Origin: Candidatus Obscuribacterium magneticum
Lineage (GTDB): Bacteria; Elusimicrobiota; Elusimicrobia; F11
DNA length: 64,000 nt
Assembly: GCA_020523905.1 (NCBI GenBank)
Contig: JAJAPZ010000006.1
Coordinates: forward strand, 1-64,000
Reading direction: 5' to 3'
The number at the start of each line of letters is the position of its first letter. Within the stretch, counting starts at the first letter, position 1. The translations under genes and the position numbers were made by a program. The notes below the pieces were generated by a model. It was not told where the DNA came from. It saw only the letters and a list, made by a program, of their open reading frames with translations, and made no database searches. Shown here one piece after another: positions 9,935-60,366 of the stretch.

Positions 9935-9951
9935 CGCCGGATGTCCGCCCC

Positions 9952-17751: not shown

Positions 17752-18923
17752 AGAGGTTGGTCGTTTTCATTTTTTCTTTTTCTTTGGTTCTCGAGACCAT
17801 TGCCGGTTCCGGTAAAAGCGGCCTCGGGTTTCTCTCCTTGGGAAACGGCGCCCGCGCCACGGGAATGGGGGAGGCCCAGACGGCTTTGGCGGAGGGCGCC
17901 AACGCCATCTATTGGAACCCGGCGGGGTTGGGTCTCACCCCCCAACACGAAGTGTCGTTGACCCACCTCAAGCATTTTGAGGATTCTTCTCAACAGTATG
18001 CCGGCTTGGCGATTCCCATCAGGGAGGGACAATGGGGAGGACTGGGTTTGTCTGTCACGCGGTTTGCCATTGAAAATATTGAAGTCCGTGACGCCATGTC
18101 CACTCGCCAGGGCACCGTTGAACAGGAGGATTTAAATCTTCAACTGTCCTATGGCGTTCGCGTCGGAAGGGGGAGCAAGGATTTTGATCGGGAGGGTCTT
18201 TACATCGGCGGCGGCGTTAAACGGGTGTCGGAAGATTTGGGAGGCGTGTCCGCTTCGGCGGTCGCCTGTGATTTGGGGCTCCAATATCGGCCCGGTAGCT
18301 GGTGGGCCCGCTCCGTCGGCGAAGGAATGCGGCGGACTTCCTTTGGAGGAAGCCTCCTCCATATCGGAAAAGGTCCCAAATTTGATCAGGAAGAGACGCC
18401 CTTCCCCCAAGTTTCACGCGTGGGTTTGGGATACACCCACTTTTTATGGGGGGACGCGATCAACCTCGGTCTTGATTATGAGAAACCGAAGGACGATGAC
18501 GGACACCTGTTGAGCGGAGCGGAATTCTGGGTCAAAGACACGGTCGCTTTTCGAGTGGGCTATAAAGAAGGGCAGGACGTGGGGCAGGGCCTGCGCGCTG
18601 GGGCGGGCTTCAAGTTTCAATCGATTCAGTTGGATTACGCCTGGGCCGGGTTTGGCGAGACGTTTGGAGATACGCACCGCTTTACCTTGAATCTCCGGTT
18701 TGGAGGACGGGGGTCCGCCCCTTCGGGAGGACTCAAGTCCGATCTTGTCCGGTATCATCTTTCACGGTCGCAGGAAGCGCTCTCCCTTGGCCTCGCCCAC
18801 GAAGCCATTTTGGAAGCCAACCATGTTCTGGAGGTCGACCCCCGAAATCCAGCCGCCTTGCAGCTGTTGACGGAAGCGGGTGAAAAAATAAAGCCGGAAA
18901 AGTCTCTGCCCGAAGTGCCATGA
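17748..18923 (+). CDS. PorV/PorQ-family outer-membrane beta-barrel protein (second copy)
   Basis: 391 residues from GTG 17748, which overlaps the previous stop (GTGA). The longer frame from 17478 is only an open extension inside the upstream gene. Signal peptide RLVVFIFSFSLVLETIAG, then the family signature GFLSLGNGARATGMGEAQTALAEGANAIYWNPAGL and barrel strands to about residue 325. The extra C-terminal segment (SLGLAHEAILEANHVLEVDPRNPAAL) is TPR-like and absent from the first copy. It is placed exactly as the first PorV-like gene is, behind a protein with a type IX-like sorting domain. It overlaps the kinase gene as ATGA. Confidence 0.78.
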   Translation: MKRLVVFIFSFSLVLETIAGSGKSGLGFLSLGNGARATGMGEAQTALAEGANAIYWNPAGLGLTPQHEVSLTHLKHFEDSSQQYAGLAIPIREGQWGGLGLSVTRFAIENIEVRDAMSTRQGTVEQEDLNLQLSYGVRVGRGSKDFDREGLYIGGGVKRVSEDLGGVSASAVACDLGLQYRPGSWWARSVGEGMRRTSFGGSLLHIGKGPKFDQEETPFPQVSRVGLGYTHFLWGDAINLGLDYEKPKDDDGHLLSGAEFWVKDTVAFRVGYKEGQDVGQGLRAGAGFKFQSIQLDYAWAGFGETFGDTHRFTLNLRFGGRGSAPSGGLKSDLVRYHLSRSQEALSLGLAHEAILEANHVLEVDPRNPAALQLLTEAGEKIKPEKSLPEVP

Positions 18924-20491
18924 GGAAATTGCTGTCGGACTCCAAAAAATTGATGCGGATCTTCCTTTTGTTGACGCTCTCTCCCTTGATCCTGGTGGGG
19001 GCGGGGCTTGTCCTTTTTTCCTTTTATAGTGTGAGACAAGAATTCAGCCTCCGCCGCCAGATGGAAGCGGACCGGATTGAAGGCGACGTCCGAGATCACG
19101 TTCGGGCGTGGAAAGATGTCTTGCGGGTGGCCGGCACGGCGTTGGGTTTAGTCGCTGATGATACGGGAAAGCGACGGGCGTTTATGGCGCGGTTGCTTTA
19201 TCACTATCCGGACATTCAATCGGTTCGCCTTTTTTCCGATGCCGGATGGGAGACAGACGCCGTCTTTCGGCCCGGAACCATTCGCTCCCCTGAAGTCTCA
19301 ATTGAAAAAGCGTCCCTTCGCTCCTTGATTGACCAAAAGGAAATCTATCAGGGTCCCGTGCGTTTCCCGGAGGCGGGTTTTCCGTGCCTTCCCTTGGCGA
19401 CTTCGGTTTTATTGCCGACGGGCGAGCGGATGGGCATTCTTTTCATGACCTTCAGTTTGGAATCCTTGTCGGACCGCTTGCGGGCGGTTCAAAGGGGAAA
19501 CCGGCATGAAGACATCCAACTTCGCGAGGGTCACAACACTCTCGCCGCTTCAGAGCCCCTGCTTCTTTTTAAAGGCGCGCTCTCTTCTCGCCGTTTCTCC
19601 CCGCTTTATGAAAGGGGAATCCCCGAGCTGGGCTGGGTGTTGGAGATCCGGGAGTCGTGGTTTCAAACATACCGTGCGACCCTCCTATTATTAGGACAGA
19701 TCCTCTTAGCCCTCTTTCTCGTTGGATTATTAACGATGATCCTGGGACTCCTTTGGTCTCGCCGGGCGCATAGAAGAATTGCCCAGGAGGAGCGACTGGT
19801 GGCCATTGGGCAGATGATCAATGTCTTCGGGCACGAGATCCGGACCGCCCTGGCCGTGATCCGGAATTCCATGAGCTTTTTGAAGGAACATCTGGGATCT
19901 CTGGATGTCAAAACGCAGCGGCATATGGATATCATTGAAGATCAGGTGGTCGCCACCAATAAGATTTTTGCCGAACTCTCAGGATTTGCTCGATCTAAGA
20001 CCCTCTGCCGGAAGCCTTTGGCGGTCAGCGCTGTTCTCGACGATGTTCTGAAGACGTTGCCGATGCCGCACTCCATTCGGGTGGAACGGCGGTTTTTGGA
20101 CCGGGATGTGGTTGTTTCCTTGGATGAGGATGAATTTCGGAAAGCCATGACCAACGTGATTTTGAATTCGATTCAGGCTATGGAGAAGGGAGGAACCTTG
20201 ATCGTTGGGACGTTTCGCCGCGGGAGTCAGGTCATCATTTCCGTGACCGACACCGGTTCAGGAATCGCCCCTTTCATCCGGCCTAAGATTTTCGACCCGT
20301 TCGTCACGACGAAAAGCCAGGGGACCGGCTTGGGGTTGGCGATCGTGAAGAAGTTTGTCGATGAACACGGGGGGCAGATTCAGGTGGAGAGTCGTGTCGG
20401 TTATGGCACGACCGTGCAGATGTTTTTCCAGGCCGAAATACTCCCGTCGCAGGCGCCGGCGGTTTCAACAAAGAAGGCGGTCACCGCATGA
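18920..20491 (+). CDS. Membrane sensor histidine kinase
   Basis: 523 residues: TM1 at about 12-34, an extracytoplasmic sensor region (about 35-255), TM2 at about 256-280, then the kinase core. The H-box is FGHEIRTALAVI with phospho-acceptor H305. The ATP-binding domain has NVILNSIQAM (N box), DTGSGI (G1), DPFVTTK (F box) and GTGLGLAIVKKF (G2). It phosphorylates itself in response to an unknown envelope signal, with the NarL-type regulator encoded next (ATGA overlap) as the likely partner. The H-box is HisKA/NtrB-like rather than HisKA_3, the type usually paired with NarL regulators. Confidence 0.9.
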   Translation: MRKLLSDSKKLMRIFLLLTLSPLILVGAGLVLFSFYSVRQEFSLRRQMEADRIEGDVRDHVRAWKDVLRVAGTALGLVADDTGKRRAFMARLLYHYPDIQSVRLFSDAGWETDAVFRPGTIRSPEVSIEKASLRSLIDQKEIYQGPVRFPEAGFPCLPLATSVLLPTGERMGILFMTFSLESLSDRLRAVQRGNRHEDIQLREGHNTLAASEPLLLFKGALSSRRFSPLYERGIPELGWVLEIRESWFQTYRATLLLLGQILLALFLVGLLTMILGLLWSRRAHRRIAQEERLVAIGQMINVFGHEIRTALAVIRNSMSFLKEHLGSLDVKTQRHMDIIEDQVVATNKIFAELSGFARSKTLCRKPLAVSAVLDDVLKTLPMPHSIRVERRFLDRDVVVSLDEDEFRKAMTNVILNSIQAMEKGGTLIVGTFRRGSQVIISVTDTGSGIAPFIRPKIFDPFVTTKSQGTGLGLAIVKKFVDEHGGQIQVESRVGYGTTVQMFFQAEILPSQAPAVSTKKAVTA

Positions 20492-21141
20492 AGCGCACCC
20501 TTCGGCTGGCCATTGTGGACGATCACGCTCTTTTTCGGGAGGGCTTGAAGGATCTGCTTCTCCAGCAGCCCGATTTTTCGGTGGTGGCGGAAGGGGCGGA
20601 CGGGGCGGACGCGTTGCGGATTGTCGCCGATTATAAGCCGGATGTGCTGCTCCTTGATTTGCGCTTGCCGAAGCTGGGGGGAATCTCCGCCATCCGGCGC
20701 CTGCGGGAGTCGCACAAGGACGTGAAGATCGTCGTTATTTCCATGTATGAAGACGAGGACTTCAAGCGCGAAGCGGTCCTGGCCGGCGCCGACGCGTATC
20801 ATTCCAAGATGGATGAGGCGCCCGCCGTCATACAAACCATCCGCAAACTCATCCAAGGCAAAAGAGTGATCCCGGAGGACCAGTTGAGAATCTACCGGCA
20901 ATATCAGGAGAAACATGGGATCGAGGAGGAATCGGTCCCCCGCCTCACCGAAATGGAGTTCCGCATACTGGATCACTTAAGCCGTGGTTTCACCAACAGT
21001 GATCTGGCGCGCATCCATGGGACGAGCGAGCGAACGCTTAAGAACCACTTGAGTTCGATATTCAAAAAACTCGGCGTCAAAACCCGCCTCGAAGCGGTCC
21101 ATTACGGCTTTGAGAAGAAGTTGATTTCCCTCGTGCTATGA
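20488..21141 (+). CDS. NarL/LuxR-type response regulator
   Basis: 217 residues: receiver domain (about 5-125) with acidic residues VDDH, phospho-acceptor D57 in LLLDLRLPKLGG and the conserved lysine in AYHSKMDEA; then a LuxR-type helix-turn-helix (about 150-205) containing LTEMEFRILDHLSRGFTNSDLARIHGTSERTLKNHLSSIFKKLGV-like elements. Partner of the kinase upstream and probably the regulator of the surrounding export genes. A NarL-type domain would not be expected to bind the 11-bp TTAA arrays, which suit winged-helix PhoB/OmpR regulators better. Confidence 0.92.
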   Translation: MKRTLRLAIVDDHALFREGLKDLLLQQPDFSVVAEGADGADALRIVADYKPDVLLLDLRLPKLGGISAIRRLRESHKDVKIVVISMYEDEDFKREAVLAGADAYHSKMDEAPAVIQTIRKLIQGKRVIPEDQLRIYRQYQEKHGIEEESVPRLTEMEFRILDHLSRGFTNSDLARIHGTSERTLKNHLSSIFKKLGVKTRLEAVHYGFEKKLISLVL

Positions 21142-21458
21142 CCAAAAAGATTTATCGCCTTGTCGGAATTGTTTTGCTTGCCGCGGGGGTGGGAGGAGCC
21201 TTTATTATGGTGAAAGCCTTTTGGGGAGGGAAAAGTGCCGTCGGGAAACGGGATGTGTGGGCGATGGGTCTTCGGGGGACAGCCAAGGTGTCCCAGCGGC
21301 TCTCCGACCTGCAACGGGGTCGGCTTGAGCGACATTTTCTCCATACGCCGCCCCGTGCCCATTCCCTCGCGGGACATTCTGTCGACGCGACAGCCGGAGC
21401 CGTGGGTGAGGTGCAGCAGATCAACGAATTCAATCGAAGGCAAGGGGAACACAGATGA
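21138..21458 (+). CDS. Small membrane-anchored protein of unknown function
   Basis: 106 residues: one TM helix at about 8-27 (LVGIVLLAAGVGGAFIMVKAF), then a basic, probably soluble tail with no recognisable domain. It overlaps the regulator stop (ATGA), so it belongs to the same transcript, and precedes the TolC-type gene. It could be a small accessory subunit of the export system, but only position supports that. Confidence 0.55.
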   Translation: MTKKIYRLVGIVLLAAGVGGAFIMVKAFWGGKSAVGKRDVWAMGLRGTAKVSQRLSDLQRGRLERHFLHTPPRAHSLAGHSVDATAGAVGEVQQINEFNRRQGEHR

Positions 21459-21477
21459 AAGCAGCAACGGCCCATGC

Positions 21478-21615
21478 CGTCATTCCGGCGAAAGCCGTCA
21501 CCCCGGCCTTCGTCATTCCGGCGAAAGCCGGAATCCATCCCGATGTTCACGTCCTGGATTCCGGCTTTCGCCGGAATGACGGGTTCTGCCGGAATGACGA
21601 AGGTCGGGGTGACGG
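21478..21615. repeat. Cluster of dispersed palindromic repeats before the TolC-type gene
   Basis: Three or more full or partial copies of the GTCATTCCGGCGAAAGCC element in both orientations, ending with GACGGG, CGGAATGACG and GGTGACGG fragments. They keep the frame open from 21455, but the encoded text is repeat translation (IPAKAG, DSGFRRND), not part of the mature protein. Confidence 0.88.
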
Positions 21616-21619
21616 AATT

Positions 21620-23047
21620 ATGCGACGGTCCCTTTTTGCCGTGTTTCTTCTGGGTTCTCTATCTTGGGGGGCTGCTGAGGAATCTCCGGTTGCGGCGTCC
21701 TCCGCACCAGCCCCAAAAAGCTCCGTTATGGATTTAACGGGTTGTATGCGGATCGGCCTAGAGCACTATGAGCCCCTCAAGTTGGCTGATGAAGAAGTGG
21801 AGTTGGCGCGGTTAAAGCGCCAAGAAGCTTATCGGGCCTTTTATCCAGCGCTTTCCATGAAGGCCGAGCGGACGGAGGGGGAAACGGCCGATCCCACACG
21901 GGCGCCCAACTTCATAGAGAAGATGTATGGCGCTTCTCTCTCGCAGAGTCTGTTTGAGGGCGGGAAAATTGCCGGCACCTATCAGCAGTCTTTGGCTGCT
22001 CATGTGGCGGCGGAAAAGAACCGGGAAAAGGTCTATCACGATTTTGTCTATAACGTCGCCGAATCCTATTGGAAACTCGTTTCAACACAGAATAATTTGA
22101 ACGAAAGGGAATCGGTTAAAAGCACGATAAAAAACGATCTCAAGATCATGACGGAGCAGTATGTGTTGGATTTGGCGGTCAAGCAGCAGTTTTTGGCGGT
22201 CAAGGCCCAGTATTTAAACGCCAATAACCAGGCCAATGGGGCAAGGATCGCTTATTCCAAGGCGCGCTGGAATCTGGCCAAGGCGCTGGGGCTGCCTCGG
22301 CCGCCGGATTTCGACGTCGCGGCCCCCATTCCCTATAAAAAGATAGACGTGCAATTGGAGCCGTGTCTGCTCTTGGCGGCGGGACATCGGCCGGATCTCT
22401 CCATGCAAAAATATTTGATGGAGGTCGCCCGGCGGGGGCGGCAGGTCGCCTCCTCGGCCCGGTTCCCAAAATTTGTCGTGAGCGGTTTTTACGGCAAATC
22501 GGCGGCGGCGTATGAAACGGATCCTCTCGAATTCCGTGAGGATTGGCAGCTCAGCGCGCGCGTGTCTCAGGCCTTTCTGGGGAATTCGATCGGCTTGACA
22601 GGGTCGGATATCAAGACCAGTCCCAAAATCGGCCAATCCACGCGAACCCGGACCAAAACGGAAGGGGTCAGTCTCAACCTCCTGGATGGGCTAAAGGATC
22701 GAACGGAGATGAAGCAATCGGACCTGGCTTTTCGGCAGGCCGATTTGAAGCTGCGGGATTTGGAAAAAGAAGTGGCTATGGACGTCGAAGAGGCCTTTTA
22801 TGATTTGAACCAGGCGATCCTGCAGGTTGAATTTACGGATGAAGATTTAAAATTGGCGGAGGAAGAGCTTCACGTGGCGGAATCGAAGGGAAAATACGGT
22901 CTCTCCAGCCTCTTGGAGTTGGCTCAAGCCCGAAACCGCCTCGCGGGCAGCCGCGTGGCGCGCATGGACGCTCTGGCCGCTACCCAAATCGCCGTCGCCG
23001 CCCTCAACCGAGCCGTTGGTATTGTCGATCGGTTTAAAGTGGAATGA
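21620..23047 (+). CDS. TolC-family outer-membrane efflux protein
   Basis: 475 residues from ATG 21620, chosen because a clean signal peptide (RRSLFAVFLLGSLSWGAA) starts there; the longer frame is repeat sequence. The long helical segments (LKLADEEVELARLKRQEAYRAFYPAL, VYHDFVYNVAESYWKLVSTQNNL, DVEEAFYDLNQAILQVEFTDEDLKLAEEEL) match the two outer-membrane-efflux repeats that form the periplasmic coiled-coil tunnel. Family members are trimeric exit ducts for RND or ABC exporters. The adaptor and two RND permeases follow, so this is the outer-membrane part of one tripartite pump. Confidence 0.88.
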   Translation: MRRSLFAVFLLGSLSWGAAEESPVAASSAPAPKSSVMDLTGCMRIGLEHYEPLKLADEEVELARLKRQEAYRAFYPALSMKAERTEGETADPTRAPNFIEKMYGASLSQSLFEGGKIAGTYQQSLAAHVAAEKNREKVYHDFVYNVAESYWKLVSTQNNLNERESVKSTIKNDLKIMTEQYVLDLAVKQQFLAVKAQYLNANNQANGARIAYSKARWNLAKALGLPRPPDFDVAAPIPYKKIDVQLEPCLLLAAGHRPDLSMQKYLMEVARRGRQVASSARFPKFVVSGFYGKSAAAYETDPLEFREDWQLSARVSQAFLGNSIGLTGSDIKTSPKIGQSTRTRTKTEGVSLNLLDGLKDRTEMKQSDLAFRQADLKLRDLEKEVAMDVEEAFYDLNQAILQVEFTDEDLKLAEEELHVAESKGKYGLSSLLELAQARNRLAGSRVARMDALAATQIAVAALNRAVGIVDRFKVE

Positions 23048-23056
23048 CGTTATCGT

Positions 23057-23127
23057 CGTCATTCCGGCGGAAGCCGGAATCCAGGTCAGCGATAAAAGTC
23101 TGGATCCCGACTTCCGTCGGGATGACG
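23057..23127. repeat. Paired palindromic repeat between TolC-type and adaptor genes
   Basis: CGTCATTCCGGCGGAAGCC and a facing diverged copy (CCGACTTCCGTCGGGATGACG core) fill most of the 95-bp intergenic gap and leave only the adaptor ribosome site. Confidence 0.85.
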
Positions 23128-23142
23128 GTAAAAGGAACCTAA

Positions 23143-24222
23143 ATGCATCCCCTCATACTGAAACATAAAAAAGTTGTTGTCGTTGGCGGCATCGCGCTGG
23201 TGTGTCTTCTGTTGGGCGCGTTTCGTTTGGTGATGACGTATGGCCGCTCCGGCCGTTACGGAAGCCGGGGAGCCGTTGAAAAACCTTCCGGAGAAACTCT
23301 CAGCCGGCCCGCCGTGCAGGCCTTTGTCTGTAAAAAGACAACGTTCGTGGACAATTTGGTTCTGACCGGCACTCTTCAAGGCGGTGCCCGGGTTGAGTTG
23401 CGTTTTAATCGGGAGGGGCGGATCTCAAAAATAAATTACCGCATTGGGGGCAAAGTCCTCCGGGGAGCCGTCATCGCCGAGTTGGACACGGGAGAAGCCA
23501 ATATTCGGCTGCAGCAGGCGGAATCCGAACTGTCGCAGGCGGTCGAGCTCTATCGGGCCGGGGCGATCGCGAAGCCGCGCCTTACGCAGGCGCAGCTGGC
23601 CGCCAACTTGGCCCGAGAAGAGTTCGGCCGGTCCTTTATTAAAGCGCCGCGGGAAGGTTCGATCGGTGAGTTGAACGCGGAGGTGGGGGAGTATGTCAAC
23701 ACCCAGATGACGGTGGCCTCCCTCGTGTCCATTGGGACGGTTTTTGTGGAGGTCGGGGTGATTGAGAAGGATCTCGGAAAAATCCGCAACGGACAGGGCG
23801 TCGATGTGGAAGTCGAAACCTACCCCGGTGTGGTTTTTAAGGGGAAGGTCGCTCATATTGCGCCCTTGGTGGAGGGGACAAGCCGGACCCGCACCGTTCG
23901 CGCGGAGATCCCCAATGAAAAAGGAGTGCTTCTGCCGGGCATGTTTGCCCGCGTGAAGGTCTTTATCATGGAGAAACCGGATGTCCTTGTCGTTCCCTGG
24001 ACCGCCTTGCGGGAGGGGAAGGCGGGGAAGGAGGTCTTTCGCTTGGATGGTGACAATGTTCATGCTCAGTCCGTTCAAATCGGATACGAAAGTTCGGATT
24101 ATGTCGAAATCCTGTCTGGTTTGAAAGAAGGCGACAAAATCGTGGCCCAGGTCACCGACCGTCTTCAAGATGGGGGGCATGTCGAGGTCATCGAAGAAAC
24201 AGCCTATGGAGAGAAAAATTGA
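23143..24222 (+). CDS. RND periplasmic adaptor (membrane fusion protein)
   Basis: 359 residues with an AAGGAA site 7 bases upstream. An N-terminal TM anchor (about 11-30, VVVVGGIALVCLLLGAFRL) is followed by the lipoyl/barrel-sandwich half-motifs (LRFNREGRISKINYRIGGKVLRGAVIAELD and KAPREGSIGELNAEVGEYV), a short helical hairpin (AESELSQAVELY...) and the beta-barrel domain (VEVGVIEKDLGKIRNGQGVDVEV), as in HlyD/AcrA-type adaptors. It links the inner-membrane permease to TolC. The hairpin is short, as in metal or small-molecule RND systems. Its stop overlaps the TTG of the permease gene. Confidence 0.92.
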   Translation: MHPLILKHKKVVVVGGIALVCLLLGAFRLVMTYGRSGRYGSRGAVEKPSGETLSRPAVQAFVCKKTTFVDNLVLTGTLQGGARVELRFNREGRISKINYRIGGKVLRGAVIAELDTGEANIRLQQAESELSQAVELYRAGAIAKPRLTQAQLAANLAREEFGRSFIKAPREGSIGELNAEVGEYVNTQMTVASLVSIGTVFVEVGVIEKDLGKIRNGQGVDVEVETYPGVVFKGKVAHIAPLVEGTSRTRTVRAEIPNEKGVLLPGMFARVKVFIMEKPDVLVVPWTALREGKAGKEVFRLDGDNVHAQSVQIGYESSDYVEILSGLKEGDKIVAQVTDRLQDGGHVEVIEETAYGEKN

Positions 24223-27200
24223 GTTTGATTGAATTGGCGGTGAGACGGCCGGTGGCCACCGGCGTCATCTATGTTTTTCTGGGGGCGGCGGGTGTGTTGT
24301 CCTGGAGCCGGCTTCCCCAAGAAGTCATGCCCAACCTGAATTTCCCTCAGTTGACGATTGTCACTTCCTACGCGCAGGCGGCCCCGCAGGAAATCGAAAA
24401 TCTCGTGACCAAGCCCATCGAAGAGGCGGTCGGCACCGTAAAAAATGTCCGGCGTCTGCGGTCCCTTTCAAAGGAAGGGACGTCCCTGGTCACCGTGGAA
24501 TTTTTTTGGGGAACCAACATGGATTTTGCCTCCCTGAATGTCCGGGAGAAATTGGATCTGGTCAAAAGCCGCCTGCCGTCGGAGGTCCGCGAGCCGACCG
24601 TCATCAAATACAACCCGTTTGATGTGCCGGTCATCATCTTGTCATTAAGTTCGGAAGAGGCCGGCCAAGCCGAATTTTTATCCCATGTGGCGAAACAGAC
24701 GATCGCCAACCGATTGCAAAAAGTGGAGGGGGTGGCGGCGGTTTCCTCGTCCGGCCTCGCTGAGAAAGAGATTCATGTGGATTTGGATCAGAGCCGTCTG
24801 GCGGCTCATCGCGTGTCCCTCCTCCAATTCAATCAGGGCTTGGCGCAAGCCAATTACCGCGGGGCGGCGGGAACCGCGCGCGAAGGGAGTTACGACTATG
24901 CCGTCCGCGTCGTTTCGCCGTTTGATTCGGTGCCGGACATCGAGAAGGCGGTCATAGCCGTCGACAATCCCCTGGCGCGGACGGGAAGCGTTCCTTCAGA
25001 GCGGATCACCTCTCTCGATCGGCTCAAGCAGCGGGCTTTGCATGGAGATCAGCGGTTGATCGCGGTCTCTCAATTGGGATCGGTCAAAGAAGGATTGAAA
25101 GAAAGGGGAAGTGTTTCACGCTACGATGGGAAAGACACGATCACGATCACCCTCCAAAAACAGGCGGCCGCCTCGACCATCGGGACGGTCAGGCGAATCC
25201 AGGAGGCCGTGACCGAATTAAAGGCGCTCCTCCCGAAAGAGGTGTCTCTCGATGTCATATATGATCAGGCGGTCATCATCAAGAAAGGGATCGGGGATGT
25301 CCTTTCCGCCATTTTTGGCGGCGGCCTTTTGGCGTTTCTTGTTTTGTATCTCTTTTTGAAGAGTTGGCGGGACGCCCTGATCGTGAGCGTCGTGATTCCG
25401 GCCTCGGCGGCCATCACCGTTATTGTCATGGATATGATGGGACTTTCTCTCAACATCATCTCCATGGGCGGCTTGGCTCTCGGGTTGGGGATGCTGGTGG
25501 ACGCCTCCATCTGCGTGACGGAAAATGTCTACCGGCATCGGGACGAATTGGGAAAAAAACCGGTGGAAGCGGCCATTCAAGGGACGAAAGAGGTGGCGGG
25601 GGCGGTGACCTCCTCGAATTTAACCTCCATCGCGGTGTTCCTGCCGCTTCTTTTTGTGTTGGGCCTTTTGGGGCAGTTGTTCCGGGATTTGTCCATTACC
25701 GTCACGGTGTCTCAAGTGGTGTCGATCATCGTTTCTCTGACCCTGGTTCCCATGTTGGCCGTGGTCATGGGGCGAAGCCCCGGTCAGAGAAGCTCTCCGG
25801 AAAAGGAGCCGGCCGAATCGAAAGGGACTGTCTTTTTGAACCTGCGGAACTGGTACGTGCGTCAACTCAATTTTGCCTTTGACCGTCCCAAAAAAGTGTG
25901 GGGGGCGATCCTTGTCGCCTTTTTAATATCTCTCGTTGTTCTCGGCCTTCTGCCAACGGAATTCATGCCCCGCGTGGATGCGGCTCAGCTGGTGGGCCAG
26001 TTGGCGCTGCCAAACGGGACCCGGCTGGAGAGGACGGACGAGGTGGCCCGACGAATCGAGGGGGAAATCCGGTCCCTCCCCGAAATTCAGCATGTGGCCA
26101 CCACGGTGGGATCAAGCTCCGATTCGCCGCTCGTTCTTCTCGGGAAAAACGAGGCCCGGTTCTTGATCGACCTCAAGAAAAAAAGGCGGCGGTCCGCTGA
26201 TGCCATCATCGAGGATTTGCGGGAAAAGATGGCGAAATTCCCCCGGAGCGGGGGATCGGTCAAATTAACGATCGCCGGGGGCCCCATGTCTTTTGCGCAA
26301 GGGGCCAATTCCCTATTGATGGTTTATTTGAAGGGAACGGACATGGAGAAGCTGAAAAGGGCTTCCGAATCCCTGATGGAGGAGCTCAGCCGCGTGAAAG
26401 GATGGGTTCAGGTGAGGAGTTCGCTGGCCTTGCCGGCGCCGGAGGTGCGGTTGCAGGTCGACAAAGAGCGGGCGGCGCGCTCCAATTTGAACGTGTCGGA
26501 GATTGGGCAGACGGTCATGGCCGCTTATCATGGGAAAAATGTGACTCAAGTCTACCGCGAGGGCCAGGAGATTCCCGTTCGCGTCCGGCTTGAAGAGGGG
26601 GACCGGCAGAATATCCAACAGCTTCGAACCCTTCTGTTGCCGGCGGCTCAAGGGGGGACGATTCCCCTCCAAGATGTGGCGCGACTCGATATCGGCGAGG
26701 GGCCTTCCCAGATCGAGCGGTTGGATCAGGAACGATGCGTTCTTCTTCAGGCGGATCCCTCCGCGGATTATGGCCGCTTCTCGCGCCGGGCCGTGGAAAA
26801 GATCATCAAGGGATTTTCCCGTCCGGACGTTCGTCTCGAAGAGGCGGGAGAGAAGCAGGCTCAACGGGAGTCTTTTTTAAGTCTTTTTTTCACGATCCTG
26901 GTTTCGATCCTCCTCGTTTTTATGGTGATGGCCATTCAGTTTGAGTCGCTGAAGCAGCCGTTTCTCATCTTGTTCACCATTCCCTTGTCGGTGATCGGGA
27001 TGGCGGCGGGGCTCTTTATTACGGGGAAAACATTGAATGCCGTCGCGGGGATGGGGCTTCTCCTTCTGGCGGGCATTGTGGTGAATAACGGCATCGTCCT
27101 GATTGATTTCGTGAACACGGAACGAGGCCCGACAGCCTCGTCGATGCGGGAGGTCTTAAAACGGGCGTGTCAGACGCGGCTTCGGCCGATAATGCTCACC

Positions 27201-27377
27201 GCGACATCGACCATTGTCGGGTTGGCTCCCCTCGCCTTTGGCATTGGGGAGGGGGCACAACTTCAAGCCCCGATGGCGATCACGGTGATCTTTGGCCTTG
27301 CCTTTTCAACGGTTCTGACCTTGATCGCCCTGCCGACCCTTTTCCTTTATGTGGAGAAGCGCTTGGGGAATATGTGA
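24219..27377 (+). CDS. RND-family efflux permease
   Basis: 1052 residues from TTG 24219, overlapping the adaptor stop (TTGA). It has the standard AcrB-like layout: TM1 in VRRPVATGVIYVFLGAAGVLSW, the porter-domain start QEVMPNLNFPQLTI, five clustered TMs around GGLALGLGMLVDASICVTENVYRH, a second half from about 545 beginning with another TM, and the C-terminal TM block ending LPTLFLYVEKRL. The TM4 motif has a single Asp (VDAS) instead of the paired DD of AcrB, as in several other RND subfamilies. Proton-driven export from the periplasm or membrane is the family role; substrate unknown. Confidence 0.93.
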   Translation: MSLIELAVRRPVATGVIYVFLGAAGVLSWSRLPQEVMPNLNFPQLTIVTSYAQAAPQEIENLVTKPIEEAVGTVKNVRRLRSLSKEGTSLVTVEFFWGTNMDFASLNVREKLDLVKSRLPSEVREPTVIKYNPFDVPVIILSLSSEEAGQAEFLSHVAKQTIANRLQKVEGVAAVSSSGLAEKEIHVDLDQSRLAAHRVSLLQFNQGLAQANYRGAAGTAREGSYDYAVRVVSPFDSVPDIEKAVIAVDNPLARTGSVPSERITSLDRLKQRALHGDQRLIAVSQLGSVKEGLKERGSVSRYDGKDTITITLQKQAAASTIGTVRRIQEAVTELKALLPKEVSLDVIYDQAVIIKKGIGDVLSAIFGGGLLAFLVLYLFLKSWRDALIVSVVIPASAAITVIVMDMMGLSLNIISMGGLALGLGMLVDASICVTENVYRHRDELGKKPVEAAIQGTKEVAGAVTSSNLTSIAVFLPLLFVLGLLGQLFRDLSITVTVSQVVSIIVSLTLVPMLAVVMGRSPGQRSSPEKEPAESKGTVFLNLRNWYVRQLNFAFDRPKKVWGAILVAFLISLVVLGLLPTEFMPRVDAAQLVGQLALPNGTRLERTDEVARRIEGEIRSLPEIQHVATTVGSSSDSPLVLLGKNEARFLIDLKKKRRRSADAIIEDLREKMAKFPRSGGSVKLTIAGGPMSFAQGANSLLMVYLKGTDMEKLKRASESLMEELSRVKGWVQVRSSLALPAPEVRLQVDKERAARSNLNVSEIGQTVMAAYHGKNVTQVYREGQEIPVRVRLEEGDRQNIQQLRTLLLPAAQGGTIPLQDVARLDIGEGPSQIERLDQERCVLLQADPSADYGRFSRRAVEKIIKGFSRPDVRLEEAGEKQAQRESFLSLFFTILVSILLVFMVMAIQFESLKQPFLILFTIPLSVIGMAAGLFITGKTLNAVAGMGLLLLAGIVVNNGIVLIDFVNTERGPTASSMREVLKRACQTRLRPIMLTATSTIVGLAPLAFGIGEGAQLQAPMAITVIFGLAFSTVLTLIALPTLFLYVEKRLGNM

Positions 27378-27420: not shown

Positions 27421-27510
27421 CGTCATTCCGGCGAAAGCCGGAATCCGGGTCGTAAACTTTTATTTGACGAATGGTTTAAAACCTGGATCCCGACTTTCGT
27501 CGGGATGACG
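27421..27510. repeat. Paired palindromic repeat between the two RND permease genes
   Basis: CGTCATTCCGGCGAAAGCC at the left edge and the facing copy (ACTTTCGTCGGGATGACG) at the right edge enclose about 50 bp. The right end supplies the first ATG (27505) of the following open frame. Confidence 0.88.
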
Positions 27511-30500
27511 ACAAAAATGAATTACACGCAACTCATCGTCCTTGTTGTTTTTGCCGGGCTTATCCTGACCTTCGCCCGGCGGCTGCCCGCTTTTTCTCTG
27601 GAGCGGCCGATTAGTCTCCTCATGAGTTTGGTGGGGCTTTCCCTGGGCGGCCTTTTGGCCTTCTGGGTTCTTCCGGTCGAGCTCATGCCCAATGCAAGTT
27701 TCGGCGTCATCACCATCACCACACCCGTTCGGGGCGGGATGTCCCCCACGGAAATTGAGCGGCAGGTGACGAAACCCGTCGAGGAAGCGGTTTCAACGGT
27801 TTCCCATGTGCGGAACTTGGTCTCCCATTCCGCCAACGGCAAGTCCGTCGTTTCCATTGAGTTCGAGCCGGGATCCGACATGGATTTTGCCGCCCTGGAT
27901 GTCCGGGAAAAGTTTTCGCGGGTGAAAGCACAGCTGCCGAAGGAAATCGAACCGCCCATCATCGCCCATTACCGGGAATCGGACGTGCCGGTTTATATCA
28001 CGGCCCTGACGAGCCAGAAAAAGTCGGCGGAGGAGCTGCGCTTCCTGGTCGACCGGGATTTGAAGGAGAAGCTCCTTCGCGTGCGGGGGATGGCCAATGT
28101 CGATGTGGCCGGCGGCCGGGAGAGGAAAATCATCATCGATGTGGATCACGACCGGCTGTCCGCGCATGGCCTGGACATCCGGCAGGTGGTGGATGCGGTT
28201 GAAAAAGCCAACGTCAACCTACGAGGCGGAGATCTTTTGACGGGCTCACGTCAGGCCGCCCTCCGGACGTTGGGTCAATATTCCAGCGTGGATGAGATCG
28301 GCCGGACGATTCTTGGAATATCTCCGCAAGGGACCTCCTTGCACGTGCGGGATGTGGCCGACGTCCGGGATGATTATCTCGAACCGGAGAGTTTGGCGCG
28401 TCTTAATTCCCATTCGGCCGTCACCGTTTATCTCCAGAAGGAATCCGGGGCCAACACCGTCCAGGTGGTCAAGCGGGCGCGCCGGGTCATGGCGGATTTT
28501 AAAAAGACGCTGCCGGAAGGGGTCTCTCTCATCGAGATTTCCGATCAAGCCGAGGCGATCCTGGACGCCGTCGGGGCCGTTCGAGAGACCCTCTTTGTCG
28601 GCATTCTATTGATCGTGATCATCCTGAGCCTTTTCCTCGGACTTCAATCGGCGATGGTTGTGGCCGTCAGCATTCCGCTCGCCGTATTGATCACGGGAGC
28701 GATCATGTATTTCGAAGGGCTCTCCGTCAATATTATGACGCTCTCCGGCTTGGCTGTAGGGATCGGCCTCCTCGTCGACAATTCGATCGTGGTGGTTGAA
28801 ATCATTCAGCAAAAGGCCACCGGCGATTTAAACCGCCGGCGGTCAAAGATCTTAACGGCCGCAGCACAGGTGACACCGGCCATTGTGGGGGGAACGCTCA
28901 CCGCCATCGTGGTTTTTGCCCCCTTCTTTCTCTTGTCGAAGCAGCTGCAAATTCTTTATTCCGGCATGGCCACCACCATCATCGTGGCTTTGTTGTCTTC
29001 CTTGTATATCGCCTTGACGACCGTTCCTTCCTTGAGTTTCGTCCTCCCTGCCCGCCTATCAGGGTGGCGGGCTTTCGCCGGAATGACGACATTACGTCAC
29101 CACCTCGAAAAGGGGAATGAGGTTGTTGAAAAGTGGAAAAGGCTCTACGCCCGGCTTCTGCCGCGGTTCATTGAGTATCGGCGCTTAGGCTTGGGCCTCA
29201 TCGCTCTGACGTTTCTTTTGGCCCTCACCGTTTTTCAGTTTCACATCGAGAAAAATTTTTCAGCTGGAAGCGAAGCGAATGAATTCATCGTTTTTGTGGA
29301 GTTGCCCTCAGGAAAGGCTTTGGATGTTTCCGATCGGATTGTCGGCGAGGTCGAAAAGGCCATACAATCGGACAAAAAATTGGCCGGGAACGTCCAAACC
29401 TTGACGACCCGGGTGGAGGGGTGGTCGTCGAAGATTTATGTGACATTGACCTCGCCCCGTAAAAGGACCCTGTCGGTTCAGGCCATGATCGACCGTTTGC
29501 GGCCGCTTTTGGCCAATGTCGGCCGGGCGCATGAGGCCTTCATTTATTATTCATCGGCCAAGGTCGGGCAGGAGCTGACGGTGAATGTTTACGGCGAAGA
29601 GGAAAAGACCGTGGCGGAGCACGCCATGCAGTTGGCGGGCCTTTTCGATCAAACCCCGGGGTTGACCGACACAAAGATCCGCTATCGGCCCGGACGGCCG
29701 GAAGTGAACATTCAGGTGGATCCCCAGCGGGCGGCGCTCTTTGGCTTCAATCCCACCGAGGTCGGAAACATCCTGCACGCACAGACAAGGGGGCTCCGAG
29801 CGACCTATTTCCGGCAGAACGGGGAGGAGATTGAAACGATTGTCCGAATAAAAGCATGGGAGCGCGATTCGATCGTCGCTGTCAAACGGCTCCTCCTGGC
29901 GGCTCCCTCGGGCCGGCTGATCCCGCTTGAGAGCCTCGCGGATTTTGATTACGCGTTAGCGCCGTCGGAAATTTGGCGGAACAACAAGCAGCGCATGATC
30001 CAGGTGAGTGCCAACGTGAAGGGGTTGTCTTTGGAGCGCGCAGCGGAAAAGGCGAAAGCGCTCATCAATCAGATTCCCTTCAACACCGATTATTGGGCGG
30101 AGGTGGGCGGCGATTACGCCGATCGGCTTCAGGCGCTAAGGGATTTTCGAAAAGCGATCCTTTTGACCTTCATTCTTATTTTTGTTGTTTTGGCGTGTTT
30201 GTTTGAATCCCTCCTTCAGCCGTTTCTTTTGTTTGTGAGTGTGCCCTTGTCTTTTATCGGCGTTGTGGCGGCACTTTTAATCACCCGTACACCCGTCACG
30301 ATGGGGGTGATGGTGGGGATTTTGATGACCGGCGGAATCGTGGTCAATAACGCCATCCTTTATGTCGATCATTTCAACGCTCACCGGTCGGGCCCGCTTC
30401 TCGGGAACCTCATCGAAGCAGGGAGTGCCCGTTTGCGCCCGATCTTGCTGACGAAGCTGACGGCGGTTTTGGGACTTCTCCCCATGGCCTTGGATCACCG

Positions 30501-31935
30501 CAGCGGCGCCGAACTGTGGCGGCCGATGGCGATCGCCACCATCGGCGGCATTTTAAGTTCCCTGGTGTTGACACTTTTTGTCTTGCCCGCTCTCCTTTAT
30601 ATTGTCGAGACACAATGTCGGCAACCCTTGTCGTGGAGCTGGTTGCGGAAAAAGAAAGGCGCTGTGGAGAAGCGGCCTCTGCGCGTCGCGGTTCCCCTGT
30701 CGGCTGTCCTTCTTTTATTGGGCGTGGTGGTGCCGCCTGTATTTTCGATAGAGAGTTTGCCGCCTTGGGTGAATGAAGTGGTGAACCGGCGCGTCAGGGA
30801 TCTCTTGGCCCAGGCCCGGGCCTTGGAGCGAAATAAGGATTTTGATACGGCGATTGGCCTGGATATGGAAGCGGTACGCCTGGCTCCCGAACGATGGGAG
30901 GCAAGGCGGTGCTTGCTTCGCGTGAATGCAAAGGCTCTTCAGTTAAAAAGAAAGGAATTTGAACGGAAGCGGGGGCGATGGGTCGCCGTCGCGTCGGAAA
31001 AAGACCGGGCGGAAAAGGCCTGGCACAACGCCTTGAACGGTCAAGTGGCGGAGGCCGAGCATTTGATGCGGAGGGGCCGCTTGATTGAGTCGTGTGATCA
31101 TTATTATCAGATTCTTAGCGAGGCGCCTTCTTATGAAACAGCCCTTCAGGGCTTGGAAAACGTCCAAGCTTCCTTGTCGCAGCAATTGGATAAAGGGGGG
31201 CATTTTGTATCGGAAGAAAGCCGTCAGATCGCCGAGGGATTTTGGTTTTATAACCAAAAGAAGTGGCTCGAGGCCGCCCAAAAATGGAAGCTTCTATTGG
31301 AAGATCCCTCGGGTGCCAAAAAGTGGGGGTCCGTTCATTTGGGGGAGTATCACTCAAGCGCGCTTCGTCAATATGAGCGATCGGAGCAACGAAAGAAGAT
31401 TGAGGGAGCGCTCGCGCAAGGCCTCGAGCAGTTTCGGCGGGGGGATTTAAAGGAGGCGGAGGTCGCTTTTAAGAACGTTTTGGCGTTGGATCCGGAGAAC
31501 CTTCAAGCCAAGGAGTACGCCCGGCTGATTCCCGGATTAAAGGAGCGTGTGCGGGCGGATGTGTTGGTGGAAGTGAAGGAGCAGCAGATGGCCAACACCC
31601 TCTCCGACGCGCTGGAATTTTACTTGAAGGGTTATTATGACGATGCCGAAAAAAAAGTCGATCTGGTCTTGAAAGAAGTGCCGGATCATCCGCAGGCCTT
31701 GGCGTTGGCCAAAGACATTCGTAACGCCCGCGGCCTCCCCGAGGCTGTGCCGTTGGAGGAACAAATGTCTGAAGAACAGATGAAAATGGAGGCGCTCTAT
31801 TCGGAGGGGATCGTGGCTTTTGCGGAAGGGCGCTGGGACGAGGCGCGCTCGGCCTGGGAGTCTCTTCTAAAAAAAGACCCCGCTCACGCCCGGGCCCAGC
31901 AGGCGCTTCGGAAATTAAGCGAGGAGGGAAATTGA
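27505..31935 (+). CDS. RND permease fused to a C-terminal TPR domain
   Basis: 1476 residues in one uninterrupted frame. ATG 27517 may be the true start, since 27505 lies in a repeat. An extra TM at about 6-24 (QLIVLVVFAGLILTFA) precedes the canonical RND TM1 (about 31-52). The RND body runs to about 1045, with TM4 motif GLLVDNSIVVVEI and a last TM block ending VLPALLYIVE. After a basic linker, a hydrophobic helix (about 1059-1081, VPLSAVLLLLGVVVPPVFS) leads into some 390 residues of TPR-like hairpins (LEQFRRGDLKEAEVAFKNVLALDPENLQA, LKGYYDDAEKKVDLVLKEVPDHPQAL). The extra helix should place the TPRs in the periplasm. A partial repeat inserts about 16 residues near 520. Confidence 0.88.
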   Translation: MTTKMNYTQLIVLVVFAGLILTFARRLPAFSLERPISLLMSLVGLSLGGLLAFWVLPVELMPNASFGVITITTPVRGGMSPTEIERQVTKPVEEAVSTVSHVRNLVSHSANGKSVVSIEFEPGSDMDFAALDVREKFSRVKAQLPKEIEPPIIAHYRESDVPVYITALTSQKKSAEELRFLVDRDLKEKLLRVRGMANVDVAGGRERKIIIDVDHDRLSAHGLDIRQVVDAVEKANVNLRGGDLLTGSRQAALRTLGQYSSVDEIGRTILGISPQGTSLHVRDVADVRDDYLEPESLARLNSHSAVTVYLQKESGANTVQVVKRARRVMADFKKTLPEGVSLIEISDQAEAILDAVGAVRETLFVGILLIVIILSLFLGLQSAMVVAVSIPLAVLITGAIMYFEGLSVNIMTLSGLAVGIGLLVDNSIVVVEIIQQKATGDLNRRRSKILTAAAQVTPAIVGGTLTAIVVFAPFFLLSKQLQILYSGMATTIIVALLSSLYIALTTVPSLSFVLPARLSGWRAFAGMTTLRHHLEKGNEVVEKWKRLYARLLPRFIEYRRLGLGLIALTFLLALTVFQFHIEKNFSAGSEANEFIVFVELPSGKALDVSDRIVGEVEKAIQSDKKLAGNVQTLTTRVEGWSSKIYVTLTSPRKRTLSVQAMIDRLRPLLANVGRAHEAFIYYSSAKVGQELTVNVYGEEEKTVAEHAMQLAGLFDQTPGLTDTKIRYRPGRPEVNIQVDPQRAALFGFNPTEVGNILHAQTRGLRATYFRQNGEEIETIVRIKAWERDSIVAVKRLLLAAPSGRLIPLESLADFDYALAPSEIWRNNKQRMIQVSANVKGLSLERAAEKAKALINQIPFNTDYWAEVGGDYADRLQALRDFRKAILLTFILIFVVLACLFESLLQPFLLFVSVPLSFIGVVAALLITRTPVTMGVMVGILMTGGIVVNNAILYVDHFNAHRSGPLLGNLIEAGSARLRPILLTKLTAVLGLLPMALDHRSGAELWRPMAIATIGGILSSLVLTLFVLPALLYIVETQCRQPLSWSWLRKKKGAVEKRPLRVAVPLSAVLLLLGVVVPPVFSIESLPPWVNEVVNRRVRDLLAQARALERNKDFDTAIGLDMEAVRLAPERWEARRCLLRVNAKALQLKRKEFERKRGRWVAVASEKDRAEKAWHNALNGQVAEAEHLMRRGRLIESCDHYYQILSEAPSYETALQGLENVQASLSQQLDKGGHFVSEESRQIAEGFWFYNQKKWLEAAQKWKLLLEDPSGAKKWGSVHLGEYHSSALRQYERSEQRKKIEGALAQGLEQFRRGDLKEAEVAFKNVLALDPENLQAKEYARLIPGLKERVRADVLVEVKEQQMANTLSDALEFYLKGYYDDAEKKVDLVLKEVPDHPQALALAKDIRNARGLPEAVPLEEQMSEEQMKMEALYSEGIVAFAEGRWDEARSAWESLLKKDPAHARAQQALRKLSEEGN
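29048..29091. repeat. Half-copy of the palindromic repeat inside the RND-TPR coding sequence
   Basis: GCCCGCC...GGCGGGC (29050-29072) runs into GCTTTCGCCGGAATGACG. It is translated as PARLSGWRAFAGMTTLRHH in the cytoplasmic loop after TM6, which tolerates length change in RND proteins. The frame is kept. Confidence 0.75.
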
Positions 31936-32996
31936 GAACCAAATTTTATTTTCTGGCAGCGTTGACTCTCATCGTGTTCAACATCTGGCACAGCCTTAAC
32001 CGGGGCGTGTGGAACGGATCCATTCGGGATTCATTGACGATGGGGCCGAATGTCATTGAGCTGGCCCAAAAGACGGATCCCCGGATTCGCATTCGCAAAC
32101 AATACGACGGCCAGTTCTTTTATGCGATGACCTTTGACCCACTCCTTCTCACGCGGGAAACTCTTTCCTATGTGGATACGCCTGTTTATCGTTATCGGCG
32201 GATGCTTTATCCCTTGTTGGGCTACGTTTTCGCTCTCGGGCAGCGGGCATGGTTCCCCTACAGCCTGTTTTTCGTCAATGTAACGGCCTGGTTTTTAATC
32301 GGATTTTTCCTTTGGAAAGTGGGCCGGTTGGAGGGTCTTCCGGCGATGACGATGGCTGTGGGGGGCATGGCCGTCTCGGGCCTTGTCTTTGCCACGTTTC
32401 GTTCCTTGTGCGATACCCTGGCGGCCTGTCTCGTGATAGGGGGGTGTTATTTTTGGAGGAAAAAAGATTTTTGGGGTTCGGCCCTTTTGTTGGCCTTGGC
32501 AGGCTTGGCCCGCGAAGTCAGTGTTGTTGTCCCCGTTTCCATTTTCATTTATTCAATTTTTAAGAAAGACGGGTCATTGAAGAAGCAGATCGGATTTATA
32601 TCCATCGCCATCTTGCCGGCCCTTTTGTGGATGCTTTATTTACGGATGAAATTACCCCACGTTCCGGATCCGGCCGGACAGCTGATCACGTTTCCGTTTT
32701 GGGGGCTCCTTCAGGAAACATGGATAAGCTGGCACAGGGAGATGACCACCACCGAACGGATCCGGTCGATTTCGATCAACGTGGAAACGGCTCTCTTGAT
32801 GGGCTTTGTGCTCGTCCGTTTTTGGAAATTCCCGACTTTTTGGGGAGCTTTATGTTTGGGACAAGTTGTATTTTTATCTTTGTTGAGAGGCGATATTTGG
32901 ATTTACCACGCTTCTTCGGCCCGGGTGGTGGCGCTCTTGACTCTGTTTTGTTTGATTTGGTTTTTGGAATTAGATCGCCGGAGGAGGGTGTCATGA
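31932..32996 (+). CDS. Polytopic membrane protein, possibly for surface glycopolymer synthesis
   Basis: 354 residues from TTG 31932, overlapping the previous stop (TTGA). About nine hydrophobic helices; the first extracytoplasmic loop contains RKQYDGQFFYAMTFDPLL, a motif seen in GT-C-like and cell-surface glycopolymer formation proteins. No catalytic DxD or ExD pair can be assigned with confidence. Located between the RND-TPR gene and two secreted-protein genes; it ends in an ATGA overlap with the collar-like protein. A role in decorating or exporting a surface polymer is inferred. Confidence 0.5.
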   Translation: MRTKFYFLAALTLIVFNIWHSLNRGVWNGSIRDSLTMGPNVIELAQKTDPRIRIRKQYDGQFFYAMTFDPLLLTRETLSYVDTPVYRYRRMLYPLLGYVFALGQRAWFPYSLFFVNVTAWFLIGFFLWKVGRLEGLPAMTMAVGGMAVSGLVFATFRSLCDTLAACLVIGGCYFWRKKDFWGSALLLALAGLAREVSVVVPVSIFIYSIFKKDGSLKKQIGFISIAILPALLWMLYLRMKLPHVPDPAGQLITFPFWGLLQETWISWHREMTTTERIRSISINVETALLMGFVLVRFWKFPTFWGALCLGQVVFLSLLRGDIWIYHASSARVVALLTLFCLIWFLELDRRRRVS

Positions 32997-34309
32997 AGAT
33001 AATCATTAAGCAGACGTTATTTGTGTTTGGATTTCTTGTAACTTTTTTGAATCTTTCGCAGGCTGTCCCGAACAACTTCCGGTTTCAAGGGCGGTTGACG
33101 GACAGCCGGGGAAACCCCGTGGTGGGACCCGATGTGCGGGTTCATTTTGCTCTTTTCTCGACGCCGACAGGAGCCTCCTTGGTATGGAACGGACCGGCGG
33201 AGCAATCGGTGGCGACCAATGAGGCGGGGCTTTTTTCGGTAGAGGTCGGGCCGGTGAACGCAGAGGAACTGGCGCGCTATGGAAGTTTGTATTTGGAAGT
33301 GTCGGTTTATGAAGGCGGCCAGATGAAGGTGCTTTCGCCGCGGCAGCTTTTATCCAGCGTGCCGTATGCTCTCCAATCCGAGTATGCCTTAAGGGCGTCG
33401 ACGGCAGGAAGCGTGGAGGATGGGGCGATAACCGCCTCGAAGATTAGAGATGGGAATGTGACCGAACCGAAGCTGGCTCCCAATTCCGTTGGCTCCGAAG
33501 CGATTATTGATGGGAGCCTTCAGGCGGTGGATTTGGCGCCGGATTCGGTCAACTCGGGCACGATTAAAGACCGATCCATCCAGGATGTTGATTTGGCGAC
33601 GTCCGCCGTGACCTCCAATAATATCCGGGACGGTTCAATCATGTCGGTGGACTTGGCGTCCGGTTCCGTTGAATCGGCCCACATCCAGGATCGATCCATC
33701 ACCGCGACCGATATCGCAGACGGAACCGTTTCAACAATGGAAATTCGTGATGGGACAATCTCCACGGATGATTTAGGAAATGGTGTGGTTCAAACGGGTA
33801 AAATCGCTGACCAGGCTGTTAATTCCGCCAAGATTGCCGATCAATCTGTTTCGGTTGTGGATTTAAGCCCGGCGGTGGCAGGAGCCCTTCTACCGTCGGG
33901 TTTAATTGCCATGTTCGCTCAAAGTTGTCCGGCCGGTTGGAGTCGTTTTGGGCTTCTGGATAACCGTTTTCCCTTGGGGGTCTCGTCATATACAGGGAGC
34001 ACCGGCGGAAACAATCAAATTGCCGGTTTAACAACAGGATCAACGGGAGACCATAATCATAGCATCCTTTCGCACACTCATACGGCGGGGACAATGTATG
34101 CAGATGTCACCAATAAGTTCTATGTTGGGGGAGATGGGGGGGGTAATGTTTGGGTTTGGGGTGGTGATCTGAATGGATTCCCAGTCATGGGCCAAACTGG
34201 AGGAACCGCTTTGAACACAAATCAAAGCGGAACACATACCCATACCGTCGTATCCGACGGGACTTGGTTGCCGCCTTATTTAGGCGTTGTTTTCTGTCGA
34301 AAAGATTAA
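32993..34309 (+). CDS. Secreted phage-tail-collar-like repeat protein
   Basis: 438 residues from ATG 32993, overlapping the previous stop; the frame stays open upstream to 32627 by chance. Signal peptide TLFVFGFLVTFLNLSQA, an N-terminal domain (about 25-125), then repeats of about 20 residues, such as DGSIMSVDLASGSVESAHIQ, from about 145 to 295, likely a beta-helical or trimeric stalk. The C-terminus (about 305-438) has PSGLIAMFAQSCPAGW, the fold start of phage tail-collar domains, plus the paired HSHT/HTHT histidine motifs typical of them. No phage genes are nearby. A surface fibre or adhesin is the best guess. Confidence 0.65.
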   Translation: MKIIIKQTLFVFGFLVTFLNLSQAVPNNFRFQGRLTDSRGNPVVGPDVRVHFALFSTPTGASLVWNGPAEQSVATNEAGLFSVEVGPVNAEELARYGSLYLEVSVYEGGQMKVLSPRQLLSSVPYALQSEYALRASTAGSVEDGAITASKIRDGNVTEPKLAPNSVGSEAIIDGSLQAVDLAPDSVNSGTIKDRSIQDVDLATSAVTSNNIRDGSIMSVDLASGSVESAHIQDRSITATDIADGTVSTMEIRDGTISTDDLGNGVVQTGKIADQAVNSAKIADQSVSVVDLSPAVAGALLPSGLIAMFAQSCPAGWSRFGLLDNRFPLGVSSYTGSTGGNNQIAGLTTGSTGDHNHSILSHTHTAGTMYADVTNKFYVGGDGGGNVWVWGGDLNGFPVMGQTGGTALNTNQSGTHTHTVVSDGTWLPPYLGVVFCRKD

Positions 34310-60335: not shown

Positions 60336-60366
60336 CCTGGATTCCGGCTTCCGCCGGAATGACGAC
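60336..60366. repeat. Half-copy of the dispersed palindromic repeat
   Basis: CCTGGATTCCGGCTTCCGCC and GGAATGACGAC form one arm-pair only; the mate expected upstream is reduced to a GTCGTCAT fragment. It lies between the zinc-ribbon gene and the mraZ promoter. Confidence 0.75.

Follow-up and report, generated by a model that had tools for sequence, protein, structure and literature searches.

RND pumps are usually seen as machines of three fixed parts that export small molecules, and the usual RND protein ends in the cytoplasm soon after TM12. Among described permeases, the protein analyzed here is most like those of the HAE1/MdtBC kind (NCBIfam NF033617 RND_permease_2 and TIGR00915), such as AcrB, MdtB/MdtC, MexK, and ZneA. 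TPR domains bind many things, and several TPR proteins, including CpoB/YbgF, BamD, and PilW, are scaffolds in the envelope. In FbcH of Bradyrhizobium, a polytopic protein ending in the cytoplasm is followed in one frame by an internal signal peptide and a periplasmic domain; this cytochrome b/c1 precursor is a polyprotein and is cleaved. The first-pass annotation of this DNA knew of no described RND-TPR fusion, and we likewise found none reported in the open-access literature. The word "tetratricopeptide" is absent from the 300,000 characters examined of a large review of tripartite pumps.

The fusion is encoded in a 64,000-nucleotide stretch of Candidatus Obscuribacterium magneticum, the whole of which is called the window below. 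The open reading frame, RND2~TPR, runs from 27505 to 31935 on the plus strand and encodes 1476 amino acids in a single frame without an internal stop. Its true start is probably M5 (27517) rather than 27505, because the codons before M5 sit inside a palindromic repeat (27421-27510) and the relatives begin at M5. The Pfam profile ACR_tran matches aa 29-1034 (27589-30606; E 1.2e-203, 679 bits against a cut-off of 28, profile positions 3-1020 of 1021). TPR_2 matches aa 1429-1461 (E 2.2e-9, 37.2 bits against a cut-off of 27), with weaker TPR models from residue 1306 on. After TM12 comes a basic, presumably cytoplasmic linker (aa 1036-1060, 30610-30684) with a net charge of about +6. It is followed by a hydrophobic, signal-peptide-like junction segment (aa 1061-1082, 30685-30750; the hydrophobic stretch is computed at 1061-1079) and by a TPR superhelix (aa 1083-1476, 30751-31932) orthologous to stand-alone secreted TPR proteins. 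In total, 442 residues extend past the RND part, whereas unfused relatives (in loci L042, L048, and L101) continue for no more than a few tens of residues after TM12. The first-pass annotation had read a complete RND permease, a basic linker, a hydrophobic segment, and about 390 TPR residues without a stop, and the frame, the Pfam matches, and the AlphaFold model all agree with it; the ACR_tran and TPR domains that it had proposed to search for are both present. Its description lacked one additional helix, TM0, which precedes TM1 (aa 10-24, 27532-27576) and is followed by two arginines. AF2 models helices at residues 3-29 and 31-51 of this N-terminus. TM0 is conserved in two of the other fusions described below (G001 and G003), as well as in the RNDs of genomes G017 and G032 that form the sister group.

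A single-sequence search over 98 relatives, with the TPR part alone as the query, matched frames of 1421, 1420, and 1759 amino acids in three other genera of the same family (G002, G003, and G001, respectively). The in-frame RND-TPR fusion is therefore found in all four family genomes examined, representing four genera. Identity among the four proteins is 60-66% for the RND half and 46-58% for the TPR half. Since the TPR half diverges faster, a tight and fixed interface between TPR and permease is not proven. By TPR profile, 235 genomes of the class and 341 of the phylum yielded no further RND-TPR fusion of this kind, and TPR relatives elsewhere in the phylum are separate from RND. The first-pass annotation had considered that an assembly join or a missed stop near 30640-30760 might have created the frame, or that homologous halves might always be separate genes. 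The genome bin of the window (G000; 2.89 Mb in 137 contigs) is indeed only 71% complete and carries 13% contamination, which would suit a join or a contamination chimera. However, the identical architecture recurs, uninterrupted, in three independently assembled genomes, two of which are separate public records, JAKLIS010000063 (RA.bin92) and PLLH01000074 (fen_1177). An artefact is thus extremely improbable, and RND2~TPR is a true in-frame fusion.

The linkers of the four fusions, with 51, 137, 59, and 53 codons, cannot be aligned, and none contains a stop. Given the local base composition and assuming independent lineages, the product of the chances of four stop-free linkers is about 1.5e-6. 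The linker after TM12 is basic in every case, with a net charge of +4 to +6. The linkers also bear on the idea that the frames are contiguous only formally, with most TPR being made from an internal start and the fused product remaining minor. Candidate in-frame starts are present: GTG in the window, ATG in both G002 and G003, and an ATA codon after an SD-like sequence in G001. In G001, where the linker is long and contains repeat-like DNA, these elements stand ahead of a textbook signal peptide, and separate translation of TPR is possible there. The candidate in the window, however, has only a weak SD-like sequence. Moreover, with no stop between the halves in four divergent genomes, ribosomes that translate RND must make the fusion, so that a predominantly internal start seems improbable.

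By profile and predicted fold, the RND half is an RND efflux permease. Its AlphaFold model, with 12 TM helices and two porter loops in the periplasm, has the AcrB-like fold and matches AcrB and CusA structures in the PDB with TM-scores of about 0.75 by query and 0.86 by target. RND2 shares this predicted fold and the full-length ACR_tran match with the HAE1/MdtBC kind, and, as in that kind, its operon includes an adaptor and a TolC channel. The tandem RND1-RND2 pair resembles MdtBC. However, RND2 lies under every curated NCBIfam RND cut-off (TIGR00915, 355.8 bits against 940; MdtC, 337 against 1774). Naming at the equivalog level, either as an AcrB-type HAE1 drug pump or as MdtB/MdtC, was rejected since all family cut-offs were missed. 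RND2 further differs from this kind in having TM0 and in the C-terminal addition of the linker, the extra hydrophobic segment, and the TPR domain. The relay motifs differ as well. They read LVDNSIVV in TM4 and VVNNAIL in TM10 in the alignment, and we take them to occupy the positions of D407/D408 and K940 of AcrB; the first Asp would then be kept, while the second Asp and the Lys are Asn. Two other RND permeases, at L042:13087-16575 and L048:1934-5602, carry extra hydrophobic insertions after TM2 and before TM7, which are probably additional helices.

The last ~390 residues are modeled as an all-helical repeat with pLDDT mostly above 90. A PDB search with this model returned TPR superhelices by E-value (2.9e-6), with low global TM-scores; the matches were generic, and no specific fold relative was found in the PDB. 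Sequence and model together place this part in the TPR superfamily. Its similarity to CpoB/YbgF, BamD, PilW, and other envelope TPR proteins is that of generic TPRs, with weak scores far under the family cut-offs. A viral or mobile origin of the TPR half was rejected, as viral contigs contained no TPR relative.

The closest relatives of the TPR half are encoded in the same kind of gene cluster. In the single-sequence search, the best matches outside the family are stand-alone frames of 423 aa in G023 and 417 aa in G017. The gene row in G017 and G032 is RND, FlgD-Ig surface protein, PorV-like barrel, and TPR; on a 4.3 kb contig of G023 it is FlgD-Ig, PorV, and TPR. These stand-alone secreted Elusimicrobia TPRs (about 415-486 aa, adjoining FlgD-Ig/PorV or TolC/RND) are homologous to the fused TPR over their full length, but each is a separate gene with its own signal peptide. 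The full-length alignment places this signal peptide on the junction segment of the fusion. In the RND tree, the four fused permeases form one group (support 100/100), sister to the cluster RNDs of G017 and G032 (99/98); outside the family, RND2 has only distant relatives, which are unfused. In the TPR tree, the fused TPRs also group together (100/100), sister to the stand-alone TPRs of G017, G032, and G023 (100/97). The two reconstructed trees agree and, together with the shared operon, indicate that both halves descend from one co-operonic pair. A secreted TPR gene of the same operon would thus have joined the end of the RND gene, and its signal peptide would have become the junction segment. 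This is the origin that the first-pass annotation had proposed, fusion with a neighboring secreted TPR gene, and the stand-alone homologs and concordant trees bear it out. At the level of sequence, it is established that the fusion exists and is conserved, how the two halves are related by homology and phylogeny, and in what operon context they stand.

The first-pass annotation also held that the added helix carries the TPR part into the periplasm. Because the linker after TM12 is basic in all four fusions, the next segment should run from the cytoplasm outward according to the positive-inside rule. From this rule we infer the topology and the periplasmic location of TPR, and to this extent the proposal stands. 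A stable transmembrane anchor, which it also implied, is not established: by sequence, the junction segment cannot be told apart from a cleavable signal peptide. The junction segments and the signal peptides of the stand-alone TPRs have similar scores (KD 1.45-2.42, uncharged runs of 12-22 residues). AlphaFold predicts here a helix of only 9-11 residues with low confidence. Candidate signal peptidase sites are PVFS|IE in the window (near 30747/30748), FSHA|SP in G001, and PGLA|VD in G003; three of the four sites are plausible, and that of G002, NISG|WT, is poor.

Two outcomes for the junction are to be weighed. If signal peptidase I cuts the segment, the product is a polyprotein, processed into an RND permease of ordinary form and a TPR protein that is free in the periplasm, and the fusion couples only synthesis and stoichiometry. 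This reading, which comes close to an even chance, is favored by the signal-peptide-like hydrophobicity, by the AxA-like sites kept in the window, G001, and G003, by the short low-confidence helix, and by a hydrophobic core that in G002 and G003 is short for a membrane anchor. The poor site in G002 speaks against it, the AxA rule is loose, and the window segment with its 22 uncharged residues could be an anchor. The likeness to FbcH noted above concerns the layout; the proteins are unrelated, and cleavage is established for FbcH, whereas for RND2~TPR the chances of release of TPR from the permease by signal peptidase are about even. Alternatively, the segment stays in place as a 14th transmembrane helix, and TPR arms are tethered around each pump at its periplasmic face. 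This tether, to which we give somewhat below an even chance, is consistent with the basic cytoplasmic linker in all four proteins, with the 22-residue hydrophobic run in the window segment, and with the retention of the fusion in every family genome examined. The short cores in G002 and G003, the retained cleavage sites, and the short helix predicted with low confidence argue against it. Retention itself may be a ratchet, since splitting the gene again requires a new stop, a ribosome site, and a start together.

RND2~TPR belongs to a row of plus-strand genes in the window, in the order FlgD-Ig, PorV, HK, RR, TolC, adaptor, RND1, and RND2~TPR. The first gene (14344-17751) encodes a secreted fn3 protein with an FlgD-Ig/sorting-domain-like C-terminus, similar to those in the G017, G032, and G023 clusters; this C-terminus matches only the end of PorZ, below the cut-off. 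The second (17478-18923) encodes a PorV/PorQ-family outer membrane barrel with a C-terminal TPR-like tail (NF033709, 141 bits against a cut-off of 90), whose real start is probably near 17748. The operon thereby combines a PorV-family barrel with a sorting-domain-like surface protein, as in a PorV/T9SS-like module. A histidine kinase (18920-20491) and a response regulator with REC and a LuxR-type HTH (20488-21141) follow. The pump genes encode a TolC-type outer membrane channel (OEP, 21455-23047), a periplasmic adaptor (23143-24222; RND_mfp TIGR01730, E 3e-60, above the cut-off), and RND1, the partner permease of the tandem pair (24219-27377); both an adaptor and a TolC-type channel are thus present, as expected of an RND operon.

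Two further genes come directly after the fusion. The first, a membrane protein (31932-32996, plus strand) whose TTG start overlaps the stop of the fusion, is related to the AZOBR_p60025 family (cell-surface glycopolymer) at 131 bits, missing the cut-off of 150. The second (32999-34309, plus strand) encodes a secreted trimeric-fibre-like protein related to the mosaic adhesive trimers of Bdellovibrio (NF053851, 43.3 bits, missing the cut-off of 60). In G001 and G002, too, similar fibre-like genes follow the fusion immediately or at a short distance (L045:12085-14387 and L046:6719-7729). Export by RND or TolC is not mentioned in the paper on the Bdellovibrio fibres.

Palindromic REP-like elements (CGTCATTCCGGCGAAAGCCGGAATCC; 8 matches, 0 expected) lie in the window at 14356-14445, 21478-21581, 23057-23127, 27421-27510, and 60339-60364. 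They cluster at gene junctions of the operon, and at the start of both the FlgD-Ig gene and the TolC gene they form part of the reading frame; the N-terminus of the TolC-type channel includes codons derived from the palindromic repeat. The long fusion linker of G001 also appears to be repeat-derived, and the peptide GWRAFAGMTT in a loop of RND2 is related to these elements.

The surroundings of TPR relatives were surveyed at 20 stand-alone TPR loci chosen by TPR similarity alone. FlgD-Ig and/or PorV lie within about 2.5 kb in 13 of them and a TolC-type channel in 8, so that one or the other is present in 19 of 20. An RND adjoins TPR at four loci; several contigs end early. The PorV/PorQ family is unusually expanded in the 2.9 Mb G000 bin, with 28 matches, two of them in the window (6987-7874 and 17817-18701). 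Chance co-location is therefore expected in a minority of loci, which makes the co-location evidence somewhat weaker. The same kind of TPR is also fused to a cluster neighbor of another type, an outer membrane barrel rather than a pump. Such PorV~TPR proteins are encoded in G017 (contig C44, 658 aa), in G240 from another family of the phylum (C6, 650 aa), and in G000 (C72, 700 aa). The in-frame barrel and TPR are seen at L095:9363-11333, L108 (frame over 8372-10219, minus strand), and L104:11016-13118. On C72, they belong to a second cluster of G000 (L104:11016-19667) with PorV~TPR, a stand-alone TPR, a TolC-type channel with a long N-terminal extension, and an RND. One repeat domain fused to two different neighbors is domain-fusion evidence for a shared process. 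As to the SprA translocon, weak partial matches were found in G001-G003 and none in the incomplete G000, all below the cut-off. Large proteins with weak collinear SprA matches (open frames of 1875 aa in G002 and 1826 aa in G001) hint at a T9SS-like system in Elusimicrobia.

Since pump and TPR are fused in one family and encoded separately beside the same pump in relatives, they very probably work together in the cell envelope. In the mechanism that we propose, one translation product would insert the RND part with TM0 and the usual 12 helices, leaving its C-terminus in the cytoplasm. The old signal peptide, now internal, would then direct the export of about 390 TPR residues to the periplasm. 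There, TPR would be a scaffold of the pump assembly, composed of RND1/RND2, the adaptor, and the TolC channel, in fixed stoichiometry with the permease. It would also link the pump to outer-membrane partners, for example, the PorV barrel and its surface-protein cargo. TPR most likely serves the RND/TolC machine as a scaffold in the periplasm; RNDs elsewhere in the clade work without a fused TPR. Gene order and the two kinds of fusion suggest that TPR possibly joins the pump to PorV and the surface-protein cargo. Taken as a whole, we consider it probable that RND2~TPR is a lineage-specific fusion of a secreted TPR gene to an RND of the same operon, in one family of Elusimicrobia, with the TPR part as a periplasmic pump scaffold. 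A broader reading gives the TPR family the role of periplasmic bridge in an undescribed trans-envelope export module of Elusimicrobiota that would couple an RND/TolC pump to a barrel of the PorV type and to FlgD-Ig/fibre surface proteins. Such a bridge would be free in most families, fused to the pump here, and fused to the barrel in others; we put this forward as speculative and rather unlikely.

RND2~TPR is open to testing as an example of a bacterial fusion protein whose internal signal peptide is either cleaved or kept as a tether. The conserved RND-TPR fusion and the PorV~TPR fusions suggest that, in some RND/TolC machines, a scaffold in the periplasm is a further component, and that these machines may work together with outer-membrane protein export.
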